DNA of 45,783 bases from a virus: positions 1-45,783 of IMG/VR virus record IMGVR_UViG_3300044716_000327. The stretch is one strand, 5' to 3'. Within the stretch, counting starts at the first letter, position 1, and each line of letters begins with the position of its first letter. Position numbers and translations under genes: made by a program. Shown here in pieces: positions 2,498 to 13,827 of this stretch. The notes beneath the pieces were generated by a model. That model was given only the letters and a program-made list of their open reading frames with translations. It ran no database searches and had not been told where the DNA came from.

Positions 2498-2612
2498 CAA
2501 GGCGCATGGTAGCTGCGGCTACTGGAAACATCTGCGGAAGTTCGGCAAGCGGCTCGCCAACAAGGCGGGCCGTAAGTTTTTCCGGCGGGATTTGTCCCGC
2601 CTGAGTGAATAG
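2475..2612 (+). CDS. very basic 45-residue protein
   Basis: Runs from ATG 2475 to the TAG at 2610-2612, preceded by CAGGAGGCGCTAC. Over a quarter of its residues are Lys or Arg (YWKHLRKFGKRLANKAGRKF), so a nucleic-acid-binding or membrane-active role is possible. The last codons form a perfect hairpin, GGCGGGA/TCCCGCC with loop TTTG (2584-2601); it lacks a following T-run. Confidence 0.5.
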   Translation: MRKTPGASKAHGSCGYWKHLRKFGKRLANKAGRKFFRRDLSRLSE

Positions 2613-2649
2613 TAACAGTGTCGATTCACACAACGAAACGGAGTGTCAA

Positions 2650-3090
2650 ATGACTCTGCGGGAACGGTTTGATCGGTGGGTGCAGCATTATTTCGATGCG
2701 TGGGTGGAGGCAAAGGTGCGGAACTCCGTCGCCTTCTACCTGCCCAGCAATAGCGATCTGATGTGCGAGTTCATCCGGCGCATGGACATCCAGCCTCTGT
2801 CTGCGCTCGTCGCAGCGAGCCGTGACCTGCAGCGAGCAGTCGCGGAGCAGGTGGAGGATGGCGTTGATACCGACGAGATTGCGGAGCGGGTATCTAGCAG
2901 GATCGATGCGTCTGATGTGGCCTATCACATCGATGCCTCCGATGTTGCGTCGAACATGGACATCGATACGTGCGACATCGCCAGTCGCATCGCGGATGAC
3001 CTGGACATGTCCTCGCTGGCCGAGCAACTGGACTACGACAAGCTGGCAGAGGCGGTGGTTGGCAGGCTGAAGGAAGCGTTGACTCACTAA
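2650..3090 (+). CDS. acidic repeat-containing helical protein
   Basis: Encodes 146 residues from ATG 2650 (CGGAGTG ribosome site). The N-terminal 60 residues are mixed helix. From about residue 80 there is a degenerate tandem repeat of about 10 residues with the pattern (I/M)D-S/D-(V/I)A. It is seen twice almost exactly as IDASDVA and then in more divergent copies up to the C-terminus. The repeat would form an acidic amphipathic helix or solenoid, perhaps for oligomerisation or protein mimicry. The function is unknown. Confidence 0.6.
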   Translation: MTLRERFDRWVQHYFDAWVEAKVRNSVAFYLPSNSDLMCEFIRRMDIQPLSALVAASRDLQRAVAEQVEDGVDTDEIAERVSSRIDASDVAYHIDASDVASNMDIDTCDIASRIADDLDMSSLAEQLDYDKLAEAVVGRLKEALTH

Positions 3091-3109
3091 CAACAAAGGG
3101 GTGATGCGT

Positions 3110-3895
3110 ATGTGTCTAGCGATTTACAAAGCCTCTAAGGTGCGCCCTGACTGGGGTGCCTTGGAGGAGGGGTTCAAGTGCAACTCGCACGGTGCGGGGT
3201 TTGCCGTTGCAGTGGATGGCTCCATCCAAGTTCACAAAGGTTTCTTCACCTTTGCTGAGTTTGCCCGTGCCTATGAGCCGTTTGCCGACAAGCAGGCGCT
3301 CGTCCACTTCAGGCTGGCCACTCACGGTGCGCGTGATGCGGAGATGTGCCATCCGTTCATGGTGACAGACGAGATCGCCATGATTCACAACGGCATCCTG
3401 CCCATTAGCACGGACGATGACCAGTCCAAGTCAGACACCTGGCACTATGTGGAGTACATCCTCAAGCCTCTTGCAGAGAGGGACCGGGACTTCTACTCCG
3501 ACAATGCCATCAAGTTCTTGGGCGAGGCTGCGATCAGCGGCTCTAAGTTCTGCTTCCTGCGTGCCGATGGCGACTGGGCTATCTGGAATAGCGAGGACGG
3601 CCACTGGAAAGGCGAGACGTGGTACTCCAATCGGAGCTACGTCAAAAGCATCGGGTTCGCACGGTGGCCGAAAGAGGAAGCGGAAACGCCGGCGCTGATC
3701 GATGCGCATGTGTCCGACGATCCCGGCGAGAGCCGGTACTACGACACGCTGAGCAAGTCCGATCAGTGGGACTACGAAGACTGCTTGGAGGTTGGGTTTT
3801 CCGCGGAGGAACTGGACGAGTACATCGCCAACGACGGCGCGAGTGCCTTGCGTTATCTGGTACGGATGCACAAGTATGACGAGGAGAACGTATGA
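3110..3895 (+). CDS. class II glutamine amidotransferase (Ntn hydrolase)
   Basis: Encodes 261 residues. The start is fixed at ATG 3110 because the family needs Cys at position 2, and the protein begins MCLAIYK; an ATG two codons upstream would bury it. Family motifs follow: NSHGAGFA, HFRLATHG (substrate-binding Arg), HPFMVTDEIAMIHNG, and GSKFCFL-ADGDWAIWN with a later WYSNRSY. In this family Cys2 hydrolyses glutamine and hands ammonia to a partner enzyme. The partner is almost certainly the next gene, an amidoligase, whose ATG overlaps this stop codon (ATGA). The domain is of the stand-alone YafJ-like type, without a fused synthetase. The target amidated is not shown by the sequence. Confidence 0.85.
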   Translation: MCLAIYKASKVRPDWGALEEGFKCNSHGAGFAVAVDGSIQVHKGFFTFAEFARAYEPFADKQALVHFRLATHGARDAEMCHPFMVTDEIAMIHNGILPISTDDDQSKSDTWHYVEYILKPLAERDRDFYSDNAIKFLGEAAISGSKFCFLRADGDWAIWNSEDGHWKGETWYSNRSYVKSIGFARWPKEEAETPALIDAHVSDDPGESRYYDTLSKSDQWDYEDCLEVGFSAEELDEYIANDGASALRYLVRMHKYDEENV

Positions 3896-5058
3896 CCACA
3901 GCTAATACTGAGGAAGAAGTCCTTTGTGAGGACGGGGCAACCCGTCCTCTTTCTGTTTGTGTGCAGGATCATGCCGGCCGATGGCATGATGCCGAGGATT
4001 GCGTCGATGTCGATGGCACCATGTACAACATGCGCGATGCCCTCATCTGCTATGTGGAGACGCGCGAGGAATGGTATCTGCGGGACGATTGCATTCGGGT
4101 GGGCAGCCACTGGGAGCATGAGAACGATGCCTTCTACTGCCCCATGTGCAGTCGCGGATGCTCTGATGTAGACAGTTGCACCGATCCGAACGGCGACTCC
4201 ATCTGCGAGCGGTGCTATGACCACAACGTCTGCTCTTGCAATAACTGCGGCGAGCAGCAGTGGTGCGACGAGAGTACCCTGGACGAGGACGGTTACTGCA
4301 CGGAGTGTGCCGAGCCAGCCAGTCTAATCTCCGGGTACAGCGACAAGACAGCCAACCGCCTGAAGTCCGAGACAACGGACAAGCTGCGGTTCGGTGTGGA
4401 GTTGGAGGTGGAGGGGTACGACACTGCCGAGGAGGCTGCGGAGTACATCAGACAGCACCTGCCTGCCACCTACTGCACGCTCAAGCGTGACGGCAGTTTG
4501 GGTGAGGCTGGCGTGGAGATTGTGACCCGGCCGGACAGCATGGCCGTTCACAAACGCATGTTCGGTGCGATGTTCAAGGACTCCCCGGGCAGGGCACTGT
4601 CTAGCTGGACGAATGGCCGGTGCGGCATGCACGTTCACATCTCCAAGGCTGCGCTCTCGCAGTTGCAGATCGGCAAGATGTTGTGCTTCCTCAACGAACC
4701 TGCTGCGGTGAACTTCATCAGCAAGATCGCTGGACGCAAGCCGTGCAACTGGTGCAAGGTGCATAAGAAGAAGATCACGGACACGCGGCGAGAGCATGAC
4801 CGCTACACCGCGCTCAACGTGACCAATAACCACACCGTGGAGGTGCGCATCTTCAAAGGCACGCTGGCCGAGGCTGGGTTTATGAAGAACCTGGAGTTCG
4901 TCCAGGCACTTGTGGAGTTCACCGCACCTGCGAGCCGGTCAATCTCGCAGGCTACATCACACCGTGCGTTCTGCGAGTGGCTTCCCAAGAAAGCCTACCC
5001 GCATCTGCATGCGTTTCTGGTTGCCAAGGGTTTCATTCGTCGCCGCAATGCGGCATAA
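3892..5058 (+). CDS. amidoligase (COOH-NH2 ligase) with N-terminal zinc ribbons
   Basis: Encodes 388 residues; the start overlaps the glutamine amidotransferase stop as ATGA. The C-terminal domain carries the amidoligase signatures: FGVELEVE (about 167-174), KRDGSL and VEIVTRP (198-214), CGMHVHIS (244-251) and RYTALNVTN-TVEVRIFKGT (about 304-325). These acidic and His residues bind ATP and metal in this glutamine-synthetase-like fold. The N-terminal 140 residues are unusual, with many paired cysteines (CPMC, CERC, CNNC, CTEC) forming probable zinc ribbons. Enzymes of this family form amide or peptide bonds, and published comparative genomics links them with class II amidotransferases in peptide or cell-wall modification. 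A terminator-like hairpin sits at codons 13-20. Confidence 0.85.
   Translation: MTTANTEEEVLCEDGATRPLSVCVQDHAGRWHDAEDCVDVDGTMYNMRDALICYVETREEWYLRDDCIRVGSHWEHENDAFYCPMCSRGCSDVDSCTDPNGDSICERCYDHNVCSCNNCGEQQWCDESTLDEDGYCTECAEPASLISGYSDKTANRLKSETTDKLRFGVELEVEGYDTAEEAAEYIRQHLPATYCTLKRDGSLGEAGVEIVTRPDSMAVHKRMFGAMFKDSPGRALSSWTNGRCGMHVHISKAALSQLQIGKMLCFLNEPAAVNFISKIAGRKPCNWCKVHKKKITDTRREHDRYTALNVTNNHTVEVRIFKGTLAEAGFMKNLEFVQALVEFTAPASRSISQATSHRAFCEWLPKKAYPHLHAFLVAKGFIRRRNAA
3928..3960 (+). terminator. intrinsic-terminator-like hairpin inside the amidoligase start
   Basis: GAGGACGGG (3928-3936) pairs perfectly with CCCGTCCTC (3941-3949) around a GCAA tetraloop of the stable GNRA type. It is followed at once by TTTCTGTTTGT. 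This is a textbook Rho-independent terminator shape, but it begins 36 nt inside the amidoligase coding sequence. It could reduce transcription past the amidotransferase unless ribosomes mask it; that attenuation role is inference. Confidence 0.55.
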
Positions 5059-5073
5059 GCAAGGAGGTTGATC

Positions 5074-5364
5074 ATGGGCAAGGTAAATGAAGATCGTTTT
5101 CTCCGCACCATCACTCGTCACTGGATGGCAGGTAGCACCCTCACCGCCGCCGCCGCTGATCTAAACATCACGGTGGCGTCAGCCAGTTCACGGCTCAAGC
5201 ATCTCAGGATGCGAGGCGTGGCCAACGTCAGCGGCTGGGGTATACCGCGCCGGCAGAGGAAGGTGGCGGCTCGCAAGTCTGTCGCCAAGGTGGCCGTCGC
5301 CAAGGTGGCTAGGCCATCCGCCCAGGGGTGGGTCTTTTATGTGGGACATCCGGCGGCAGTGTAA
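5074..5364 (+). CDS. small HTH DNA-binding protein with basic tail
   Basis: Encodes 96 residues from ATG 5074, behind AAGGAGGTTGATC. Residues about 18-50 (STLTAAAADLNITVASASSR then LKHLRMRG) form a helix-turn-helix of the winged type that selects by alanine-rich helices. After it comes a lysine/valine tail with repeats of the type (S)VAKVAVAKVA, similar to histone-like tails. It probably binds DNA as a regulator or compacting protein. It is the last gene before a promoter-like motif at 5358. Confidence 0.6.
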   Translation: MGKVNEDRFLRTITRHWMAGSTLTAAAADLNITVASASSRLKHLRMRGVANVSGWGIPRRQRKVAARKSVAKVAVAKVARPSAQGWVFYVGHPAAV

Positions 5365-9122: not shown

Positions 9123-9335
9123 ATGCGCATACCAGACACTGTCAGGAAGCGACAGTTTCCCGCGACAGGGAAGTGGGTTGCTGTTGAGGTGTTCGATAGC
9201 AACTGGGATCGACAGGTGCAGGGGCTGGTAAACCCAGCCGGTGAACTGGATTGCGTGTGGGATGGCAACGCACCGTTTGGGTGGGCGCAGCAGCAAGCCG
9301 ATGTGCAGAACCGCAGAGCCAAGAAGGGGGACTGA
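9123..9335 (+). CDS. small hypothetical protein
   Basis: Encodes 70 residues from ATG 9123, two bases after the previous stop. It has a beta-type pattern (GKWVAVEVFDSNWDRQVQGL then ELDCVWDGNAPFGWAQ) and a basic end. No family is recognised. It directly precedes the serine recombinase. Confidence 0.5.
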   Translation: MRIPDTVRKRQFPATGKWVAVEVFDSNWDRQVQGLVNPAGELDCVWDGNAPFGWAQQQADVQNRRAKKGD

Positions 9336-9337
9336 CC

Positions 9338-10111
9338 ATGCTGTACGGATATGCCCGTGTGTCTACGGACAAGCAAGAGAACTCAGCTGATGCCCAGGCT
9401 ATCCGGCTGCGTGCGTACGCTGAGCAGTCGGGCTTGGAGTTTGGGGAGGTGTTCGTTGACGAGGATCAGTCGGCGTACAAGATCCCCTTGCACAAGCGCC
9501 GGCAGGGCAGGGTGCTATGGGACAAGCTGAAGGCCGGCGATGTGGTGGTGTTCTGCACCTTCGACCGTGTGTTCAGGTCGGTGCTGGATGCGGCGCAGAC
9601 CTTGGCTCAGTGCAAAGAGCTTGGCGTTCAGCTGAAGTTCTTGGACAACAGCCTGGATGTGATGACGATCCAAGGCGAGTTGAGCTACAACACCATGTCC
9701 GCGTTCGCCCAGTACAGCAGTCAGATTTCCGGGCAGCGACAGCGTGAGATCCATTCCTATCTCAACGCCCACTTCCGACCACGCGGTAAGCTGCGACCGC
9801 TTGGTTGGGTGGTGAAGAACAAGGCGTTCGTTCCCTACCAACCGGAGCGTGACATCGGCAGTCTGGTTGTGGACATGCGCGAGGAGGGGAAGTCCTTCTC
9901 CGCCATCTGCCTGCACCTATGCAAGAAGGAACTTCGCAAGCCGCCCAATCACAAGGGTGTCAGGGGCTACTATGGCCTGACTGACACAAGGAATCTGCAC
10001 CGGGCTGCGGTAGCTGGATACCCAAGGATTCCGCCAAGACTTTCGCCAGAGCAGTGGACCGCCGAGCAGCAGCGCGAAGCGAAATTTCATGCGACTCAGC
10101 CAGCGCTCTGA
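9338..10111 (+). CDS. serine recombinase (resolvase/invertase type)
   Basis: Encodes 257 residues from ATG 9338 (AAGGGGGACTGACC). It opens with MLYGYARVSTDKQENS, the resolvase catalytic box with nucleophile Ser9. It also has the active-site helix VVFCTFDRVFRS (Arg77 and Arg80 in the usual positions). The catalytic domain covers about 1-140; the remaining ~115 residues are longer than a simple resolvase HTH tail but much shorter than a large serine integrase. It would cut and rejoin DNA at a specific site, perhaps for inversion, dimer resolution or fibre switching. The last 152 bp are antisense to the sigma-like gene on the other strand. Confidence 0.85.
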   Translation: MLYGYARVSTDKQENSADAQAIRLRAYAEQSGLEFGEVFVDEDQSAYKIPLHKRRQGRVLWDKLKAGDVVVFCTFDRVFRSVLDAAQTLAQCKELGVQLKFLDNSLDVMTIQGELSYNTMSAFAQYSSQISGQRQREIHSYLNAHFRPRGKLRPLGWVVKNKAFVPYQPERDIGSLVVDMREEGKSFSAICLHLCKKELRKPPNHKGVRGYYGLTDTRNLHRAAVAGYPRIPPRLSPEQWTAEQQREAKFHATQPAL

Positions 10112-12680: not shown

Positions 12681-12889
12681 GGCTTCACCTGGAGCAGGGC
12701 AGCGAGGAGGGTGTTGCATGCAGTAACCACTGGCTCGTCGGTGCGCGAGTCGCGGATGGCGACAACCGCTTCGATCTGCTTCAGCACAGACGGCTTGCCG
12801 GCCGGCAGCTTCAGGGTGTGGAGGGGCAGGTAGGTCAGGACTACGGCAACCAGCACGGCGACGAGGGCGAGGATCTGAACTGTGGTCAT
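12677..12889 (-). CDS. single-span membrane protein
   Basis: Encodes 70 residues from ATG 12889, overlapping the subtilase stop (ATGA). Residues 3-25 form a membrane helix (TVQILALVAVLVAVVLTYLP); the tail is soluble and includes VVAIRDSRTDEPVVTAC. The topology resembles small phage membrane proteins near lysis or protease genes. The function is unknown. Confidence 0.55.
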   Translation of the reverse strand: MTTVQILALVAVLVAVVLTYLPLHTLKLPAGKPSVLKQIEAVVAIRDSRTDEPVVTACNTLLAALLQVKP

Positions 12890-13827
12890 AGGATCTTGGC
12901 TCCGGGGATGAAGATTGTGACGCCGCCGATGTTCGCCTGCATGGTGAAGTTCAGCAGCTTGTGCGGATCGACCAAGCCCCAGCCGTAGACGTTGTCATGG
13001 CCTTGCTCGCCAACGTCCTTGCAGGTGGTGGACAGTGCCTTCATCACATCGGCATGGTTGACGGCGCGATCCAGCTTGTGCTGTGCGCTGATGTACAAGG
13101 CCAGCACACCGGAGACGAACGGCGCGGCCATGCTTGTACCGCTCACGGTGGCATAGCCATTGGCCAGCCATGTGCTGGTGATGTCCTGCCCTGGTGCTGC
13201 GACCGCGATCTCCTTCCCGCGGCTGGAGAACTCACAGGCATTGCCGTGGCTATCGACCGCGCCAACGGCCACCGTTTCTTGGTAGGCAGCAGGGTAGTTG
13301 ACCGAGCCACCGTCGTTTCCTGCAGCACAGACCACCACAATGCCGGCGGCGTACGCTTCTCGCAGGGCGGTATGCACCCCATCGTCCGTGCGGCTAGACC
13401 CCAAGGACATGGAGATGATCTGCACCTTGGCTTCGATGGCGTGACGCACGGCCTGCGCCACCCACTCGTTGCTTCCCATGCCGCTGTGCCCCAAGACCTT
13501 CAGCGACAGGATCTTGGAGGCGGGGGCAATCCCTTTGGCCAGCCCGCTGCGGGCGGCGATGATCCCACTCACATGCGTGCCATGACCGAGCGTGTCATGG
13601 GCATCGGAGTCGCTGGTGAAGTTGCGGTAGTCAACCACCGCATCGTCCAGGGCAGGGTGCTTGGCCACGCCACTGTCGATCACCGCCACCGTCACGCCTT
13701 CGCCCTGTGACTTCTGCCACAGAGAGGGGATCCCGTAGGAACAGACACCCCAGTCAACACCATGCTGGAGAGCGCGAGGGGCGTCTAGGTTGACCCGGTA
13801 GGGTGGGAGATGGACGAACCCGCTCAC
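12886..13827 (-). CDS. subtilisin-family (S8) serine protease
   Basis: Encodes 313 residues from GTG 13827, overlapping the previous stop as GTGA. The full catalytic triad is present: Asp51 in VAVIDSGVAKHP, His82 in GHGTHVSGI, and Ser232 in SGTSMAAPFVSG. The oxyanion Asn171 lies in CAAGNDGG. There is no signal peptide and almost no propeptide, so it resembles intracellular subtilisins and may be active as made. Possible roles are capsid or host-protein cleavage during infection; the sequence does not decide. It is in one operon with a papain-like protease and several small membrane proteins. Confidence 0.9.
   Translation of the reverse strand: MSGFVHLPPYRVNLDAPRALQHGVDWGVCSYGIPSLWQKSQGEGVTVAVIDSGVAKHPALDDAVVDYRNFTSDSDAHDTLGHGTHVSGIIAARSGLAKGIAPASKILSLKVLGHSGMGSNEWVAQAVRHAIEAKVQIISMSLGSSRTDDGVHTALREAYAAGIVVVCAAGNDGGSVNYPAAYQETVAVGAVDSHGNACEFSSRGKEIAVAAPGQDITSTWLANGYATVSGTSMAAPFVSGVLALYISAQHKLDRAVNHADVMKALSTTCKDVGEQGHDNVYGWGLVDPHKLLNFTMQANIGGVTIFIPGAKIL

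Follow-up and report, generated by a model that had tools for sequence, protein, structure and literature searches.

The same two genes that are described here, one encoding a class-II glutamine amidotransferase (GAT) and the other an amidoligase (AL), have been reported in phiEco32, LUZ24, RIO-1, Marvin and OM43 phages (PMC5498523, PMC10580990, PMC3890496). A "peptidoglycan modification cassette" is reported for phiEco32, LUZ24, tf, UFV-P2, RIO-1 and PSA-HP1 (Iyer et al. 2009 and Hardies et al. 2013, as cited in later work), and papers that cite Iyer et al. 2009 proposed peptidoglycan modification together with superinfection exclusion (PMC5498523, PMC10580990, PMC6256558, PMC11318856). The phiEco32-type cassette resembles our locus in that its early genes include those for a class-II GATase and an amidoligase (PMC5498523, PMC3890496). 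A closer likeness was found in mycobacteriophage Marvin (gp105/gp106), the Methylophilales phages (MEP401/402) and the Manatee Spring podovirus MW202733, in which both proteins are encoded next to each other on one strand. The proteins of these three pairs share 25-40% identity with ours and have the same catalytic residues; however, their genes run AL then GAT, whereas the clade studied here has GAT then AL, and the N-terminal part of AL differs in length. The kind of pair is already known; in the present member its arrangement is order-reversed and appears to be a minimal, two-gene one.

The window, that is, the whole stretch of DNA analyzed, comprises 45,783 bases and is a whole record; it may nevertheless be a fragment, because its close relatives are approximately 60 kb long. 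The pair lies in the left arm of this temperate, tailed-phage-like contig, which also encodes a serine integrase, Erf, a RecE-like exonuclease and lambda-J-like tail proteins. The features of the locus are as follows, with positions numbered from the first base of the window.

2605 to 3090, + strand: open reading frame of 161 aa with no assigned function, kept with the pair in the closest relatives only (46% and 27% identity).
3096 to 3102, + strand: Shine-Dalgarno-like AAAGGGG, 7 nt before the ATG at 3110 (sequence).
3110 to 3895, + strand: GAT, a predicted class-II (Ntn) glutamine amidotransferase of 261 aa beginning MCLAIYK (sequence, alignment, profile, predicted fold); nucleophile Cys2 and glutamine-site residues R68, N94-G95 and D109 (alignment); C-terminal extension of predicted helices beyond about residue 205.
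3892 to 3895, + strand: ATGA overlap of the GAT stop with the AL start (sequence).
3892 to 5058, + strand: AL, a predicted Amidoligase_2 / glutamine-synthetase-fold ATP-dependent carboxylate-amine ligase of 388 aa.
3892 to 4311, + strand: N-terminal region of AL, residues 1-140, with short β-hairpin repeats ending in CxxC zinc-ribbon-like pairs (C83/C86, C105/C108, C116/C119, C136/C139; alignment, predicted model).
4381 to 4962, + strand: AL catalytic domain, approximately residues 164-357, with the motifs FGxExE (E170, E172), D200/E209, GxHxH (H247, H249), R282, RYxxxN (R304, N309) and TxExR (E317, R319) (motifs and alignment).
5068 to 5364, + strand: open reading frame of about 97 aa with no assigned function, kept in the closest relatives only.
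9251 to 10111, + strand: serine recombinase/integrase, the only other arm gene that several of the more distant relatives retain alongside the pair.

An earlier note on this DNA had described an amidoligase and an Ntn glutamine amidotransferase as adjacent genes with an ATGA overlap, placed in a phage arm and carrying intact catalytic motifs. The gene structure (3110-3895 and 3892-5058) and the position in the left arm bear this description out, as do the motifs themselves: GAT has Cys2, and the AL sequence contains FGVELEVE, KRDGSL, CGMHVHIS and the RFK-type motif (VEVRIFKG). An in-frame GTG at 3101 offers an alternative start for GAT, but a cysteine at position 2 is obtained solely with the start at 3110. 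The ATG at 3110 was therefore taken as the start, given the AAAGGGG 7 nt upstream and the requirement for Cys2.

Alignment of GAT with 41 relatives revealed that C2, H66, R68, G73, P82, H93, N94 and G95 were invariant in all of them, and D109 was kept in 40. We take C2, R68, N94, G95 and D109 to be the counterparts of the GlmS nucleophile, the α-carboxylate and oxyanion contacts and the α-amino contact. These residues fit a glutaminase, as judged from the alignment, but a γ-glutamyl amidohydrolase such as EgtC would need the same ones. As a single sequence, GAT scored under the Pfam cut-offs, with 20.9 bits against GATase_6 (cut-off 27) and 18 bits against GATase_4 (cut-off 23). In contrast, the family profile built from the 41 relatives matched the GlmS glutaminase with an E-value of 2e-9 and PurF with 4e-9. 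The predicted model (pLDDT 89.4) had GlmS (1xff) as its top fold match and EgtC as the second, with a modest whole-chain TM-score of about 0.49. GAT was placed among the class-II GATases because of this family profile and predicted fold; the N-terminal cysteine that follows Met1, the glutamine-site R, N-G and D residues and the match to an Ntn fold are those of the class. As all of the catalytic features are present, the sub-threshold Pfam scores appear to reflect divergence.

AL matched the Pfam family Amidoligase_2 (PF12224) with 29.7 bits against a cut-off of 22, although the aligned stretch covered just residues 287-341, and PHROG families annotated as "amidoligase enzyme" matched it as well. 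The check proposed in the earlier note, a search of both proteins against Pfam amidoligase and GATase_6-type profiles, gave a match above the cut-off for AL and not for GAT. Among 35 viral relatives, E170, D200, E209, P214, G245, H247, R282, E317 and R319 of AL were kept in every sequence, and E172, G168, S202, H249, T315 and F321 in 34. The ordered signature GxExE - D/E..E - GxHxH - TxExR was present both in AL and in Escherichia coli GlnA; it was found in 157 of the 162 AL relatives versus none of the 705 other open reading frames of at least 250 aa. The AL model (mean pLDDT 89.6) matched YbdK best, followed by glutamine synthetases, γ-glutamylmethylamide synthetase and PafA, with modest whole-chain TM-scores of about 0.3 (about 0.33). 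AL therefore resembles glutamine synthetase and YbdK (GCS2) in its fold match, and its ordered metal-ligand motifs are common to E. coli GlnA, but it differs from them in having no significant full-length sequence match, a cysteine-rich N-terminus and a separate glutaminase partner. Three lines, namely the curated profile with a score above its cut-off, the ordered metal and ATP motifs of the catalytic site and the predicted GS/GCS fold, agree in placing AL as a putative GS/GCS-type ligase of the Amidoligase_2 family. A search of PDB sequences with AL returned nothing significant and weak zinc-finger matches at most, and against an anti-phage defence library GAT gave no match and AL one weak match at chance level.

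The cysteine-rich N-terminus of AL had been regarded as an unusual fusion. We rejected this view, since the cysteines are near-universal among the relatives, including those of the two CxxC pairs that adjoin the catalytic domain (C116/C119 and C136/C139): across 35 diverse sequences, C116 was kept in 34, C119 in 33, C136 in 31 and C139 and C83 in 30 each. Judged from the alignment, the region belongs to the common makeup of this AL subfamily, and many relatives have much longer CxxC arrays than the window does. Its most likely role is to help in holding either the target or the other subunit. In one relative (L072:326-1828), approximately 20 CxxC motifs spaced about 28 residues apart form a long zinc-ribbon-like array before the catalytic domain.

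The earlier note had proposed looking for the same pair in related phages, and it does occur there. In a GAT-seeded search, 80 viral loci were collected; AL was on the same strand within 2 kb in all 80 and within about 150 bp in 78. Conversely, GAT adjoined AL in 78 of 80 AL-seeded viral loci, and the two exceptions (L120 and L149) end at a contig edge just past AL. These counts include near-copies, and the independent evidence amounts to approximately 22 lineages at 50% GAT identity. The pairing of GAT and AL is close to obligate. AL usually precedes GAT; the reverse was observed in the window's clade (loci L001, L002, L003, L011 and the more distant L094), while L093, which is as distant as L094, has AL then GAT. 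Adjacency and tight coupling were kept through this reversal, which points to a physical or functional partnership. Protein distances of GAT and AL were correlated, with an r of 0.93 over all 72 loci and an r of 0.31 (permutation fraction 0.0024) over 25 divergent loci. Both genes are under purifying selection (dN/dS of approximately 0.19 for each) and remain conserved in dozens of viral lineages, with identities as low as about 25-30%. Relatives in cellular genomes numbered four, all of them in metagenome-assembled genomes and none close. Two loci have other layouts: in L077:5037-8920, the sole locus with the pair clearly apart, GAT is followed by a RimK/R2K-like ATP-grasp protein and AL lies 1.8 kb downstream, and in L069:4441-8741 the order AL, GAT, AL, GAT suggests a duplicated pair.

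The GAT score under the Pfam cut-off might be read as a sign that the pair is a non-functional remnant or a chance resemblance. Against this stand the intact catalytic residues, the low dN/dS of both genes, the confidence of both models and the near-obligate pairing; we consider such a reading extremely improbable and rejected degenerate or chance open reading frames as an explanation. The pair is real and intact, and very probably functional.

The data support the gene structure, the fold class and the intact state of the catalytic residues, along with purifying selection and a pairing that is close to obligate. In our favored model, which we consider probable, GAT and AL together form a single glutamine-dependent amidating enzyme, each contributing one subunit. 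After removal of Met1, the N-terminal cysteine of GAT would hydrolyze glutamine and free ammonia. AL would bind ATP and metal and convert a target carboxylate into an acyl phosphate, which the ammonia from GAT would attack to give a primary amide. Carried as cargo in the integration arm, the pair would thus alter a host or phage molecule during infection or lysogeny. Within this model, we infer complex formation, ammonia transfer, a target and a benefit. That the benefit is steady is suggested by the recurrence of the pair in many unrelated phages, where it was kept together through divergence and order reversal. If the model is right, a functional parallel is MurT/GatD of Staphylococcus, a ligase and a glutaminase that amidate a carboxylate (PMC3267633). 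However, the folds of MurT, a Mur ligase, and of GatD are unrelated to those of AL and GAT, and MurT/GatD is not a member of this family. GatD is a class-I GATase.

A different division of labor is known from ergothioneine synthesis, in which EgtA and EgtC take part. EgtC has the Ntn class-II fold, as the fold match to GAT indicates, and stands beside a GCS-type ligase. By analogy, AL would join an amine to a γ-carboxylate to give a γ-glutamyl-type conjugate, and GAT would act afterwards as an amidohydrolase, taking the glutamyl group off or trimming it, with no ammonia passed between them. EgtC as the second-best fold match of GAT, the glutamate-cysteine ligase type of YbdK as the top match of AL, and the second GAT-like protein and further ligases in some larger cassettes are all in keeping with this alternative. 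Nevertheless, the best match of GAT in both profile and fold is the GlmS glutaminase, and synthetase and glutaminase subunits typically show just such one-to-one, nearly obligate pairing with overlapping starts. No other ergothioneine gene was seen among the arm proteins scanned, and the relation to EgtC/EgtA is one of fold alone. We consider this alternative unlikely.

Returning to the two-subunit enzyme, we compared the window with the larger cassettes. The phiEco32-type cassette is reported to have approximately seven genes, including those for ATP-grasp, COOH-NH2 ligase and γ-glutamylcyclotransferase proteins. Neither the window nor the relatives of about 60 kb yielded a match to any of the three, although the COOH-NH2 ligase profile (PF14395) gave no signal in control genomes either. 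Profiles for RimK-type ATP-grasp and for γ-glutamylcyclotransferase (GGACT/AIG2) gave no match in the window and six relatives, with positive results in control genomes. Because RimK-type ATP-grasp, GGACT and COOH-NH2 ligase matches are absent from the relatives of about 60 kb, the pair appears to be self-sufficient in its two-gene form, and the window's clade looks like the minimal two-gene form of the larger cassettes. As this smallest natural version appears to lack the cassette ligases and the cyclotransferase, assays of the core reaction should be easier with it. Some other phages encode further proteins beside the pair, namely RimK- or R2K-like ATP-grasp proteins, a COOH-NH2 ligase (PF14395, 152 bits) and a second GAT, and such larger loci match the published cassettes of UFV-P2 (PMC3890496) and PSA-HP1/RIO-1 (PMC5498523). 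L041:5745-12425, L022 and L023, for example, encode a short AL-like open reading frame, AL, GAT, a COOH-NH2 ligase (PF14395), an unknown protein of 151 aa, a second GAT and an unknown protein of 296 aa. Conversely, the Clostridioides difficile phage AR1086-1 has a PF12224 protein with no GAT recognized beside it, and Arthrobacter cluster AL phages likewise have PF12224 proteins without a recognized adjacent GAT (PMC5513430); therefore, not every ligase of the broad family needs a glutaminase.

The earlier note had left the target of the pair open, and we found no experiment on the target or substrate, or on the enzymes, of such pairs in the literature searched. Host peptidoglycan, which that note had named among the possible targets, agrees with the published proposal for phiEco32, RIO-1 and PSA-HP1 (PMC5498523, PMC10580990, PMC6256558), which is based on comparative genomics. 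In this reading, which concerns the target and is compatible with the two-subunit model, the pair would amidate or relink stem-peptide carboxylates (iso-D-Glu, meso-DAP) of host wall precursors and thereby block superinfection, acting much as MurT/GatD does when it amidates the peptidoglycan glutamate of S. aureus (PMC3267633). The RimK-type ATP-grasp and cyclotransferase components behind the cassette proposal were, however, not found in the window's clade. Murein is present in the bacterial hosts of the known pairs, but a similar arrangement was found in viruses and plasmids from three genera of archaea that to our knowledge lack murein (Halobacterium, Natrialba and Natronosalvus). The loci are the following.

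L169:3923-5576: Halobacterium phage ChaoS9, whose host is a haloarchaeon.
L177:2027-4020: candidate haloarchaeal pair locus with the same order and a wider gap.
L178:2501-4115: candidate haloarchaeal pair locus.

In ChaoS9, PhiCh1 and a Natronosalvus plasmid, a class-II GAT directly follows an uncharacterized protein (ChaoS9_220 and its homologues); the two genes are separated by 4 bp in ChaoS9 and by 13 bp in the plasmid. ChaoS9_220 and its homologues strictly conserve HGMExEQF, D..E, GSHVHL and TxELR. The protein fits the ordered GS-type signature, which one of 20,000 shuffles of it also fits. An hhalign comparison with AL was weak (P 0.012), with the motifs in register over 151 columns, and that with GlnA was not significant. 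By its ordered motif signature, the protein looks like a ligase and, with its GAT, seems to form an archaeal counterpart of the phage pair. If these equivalents are true, peptidoglycan cannot be the general target, although the pairs of bacterial phages may still act on it; overall, we regard a peptidoglycan target as possible but doubtful.

A broader reading is that the tailed viruses of bacteria and those of archaea have in common a glutamine-fed amidating enzyme with two subunits and a GS fold. Its target would be not peptidoglycan but a carboxylate that occurs in both domains, for instance that of a conserved protein or of a cofactor-like metabolite; in the bacterial versions, the zinc-ribbon array would serve as the substrate reader. 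We put this forward tentatively, as a rather improbable suggestion. Auxiliary nitrogen metabolism, in which the pair would help the host to assimilate nitrogen, was proposed for Phage-ZRK32, whose genes include those for an amidoligase, a glutamine amidotransferase, glutathione synthase and γ-glutamylcyclotransferase, but that proposal rests on the growth of phage-treated cells and not on the enzymes (PMC10945688). Moreover, a glutaminase and an amidoligase would move nitrogen that is already in glutamine, with no assimilation, and we consider this role very unlikely.

Clustering of the neighboring genes revealed no third partner gene across lineages. The exceptions were ATP-grasp/COOH-NH2 genes, which recurred in some lineages, and replication genes, which did so in a single podovirus lineage. 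The serine integrase stays near the pair in relatives whose remaining arm genes have turned over. Elsewhere in the window, a subtilase-family serine protease (Peptidase_S8, 189 bits), an unusual phage cargo, is encoded at 12889-13827 on the - strand.
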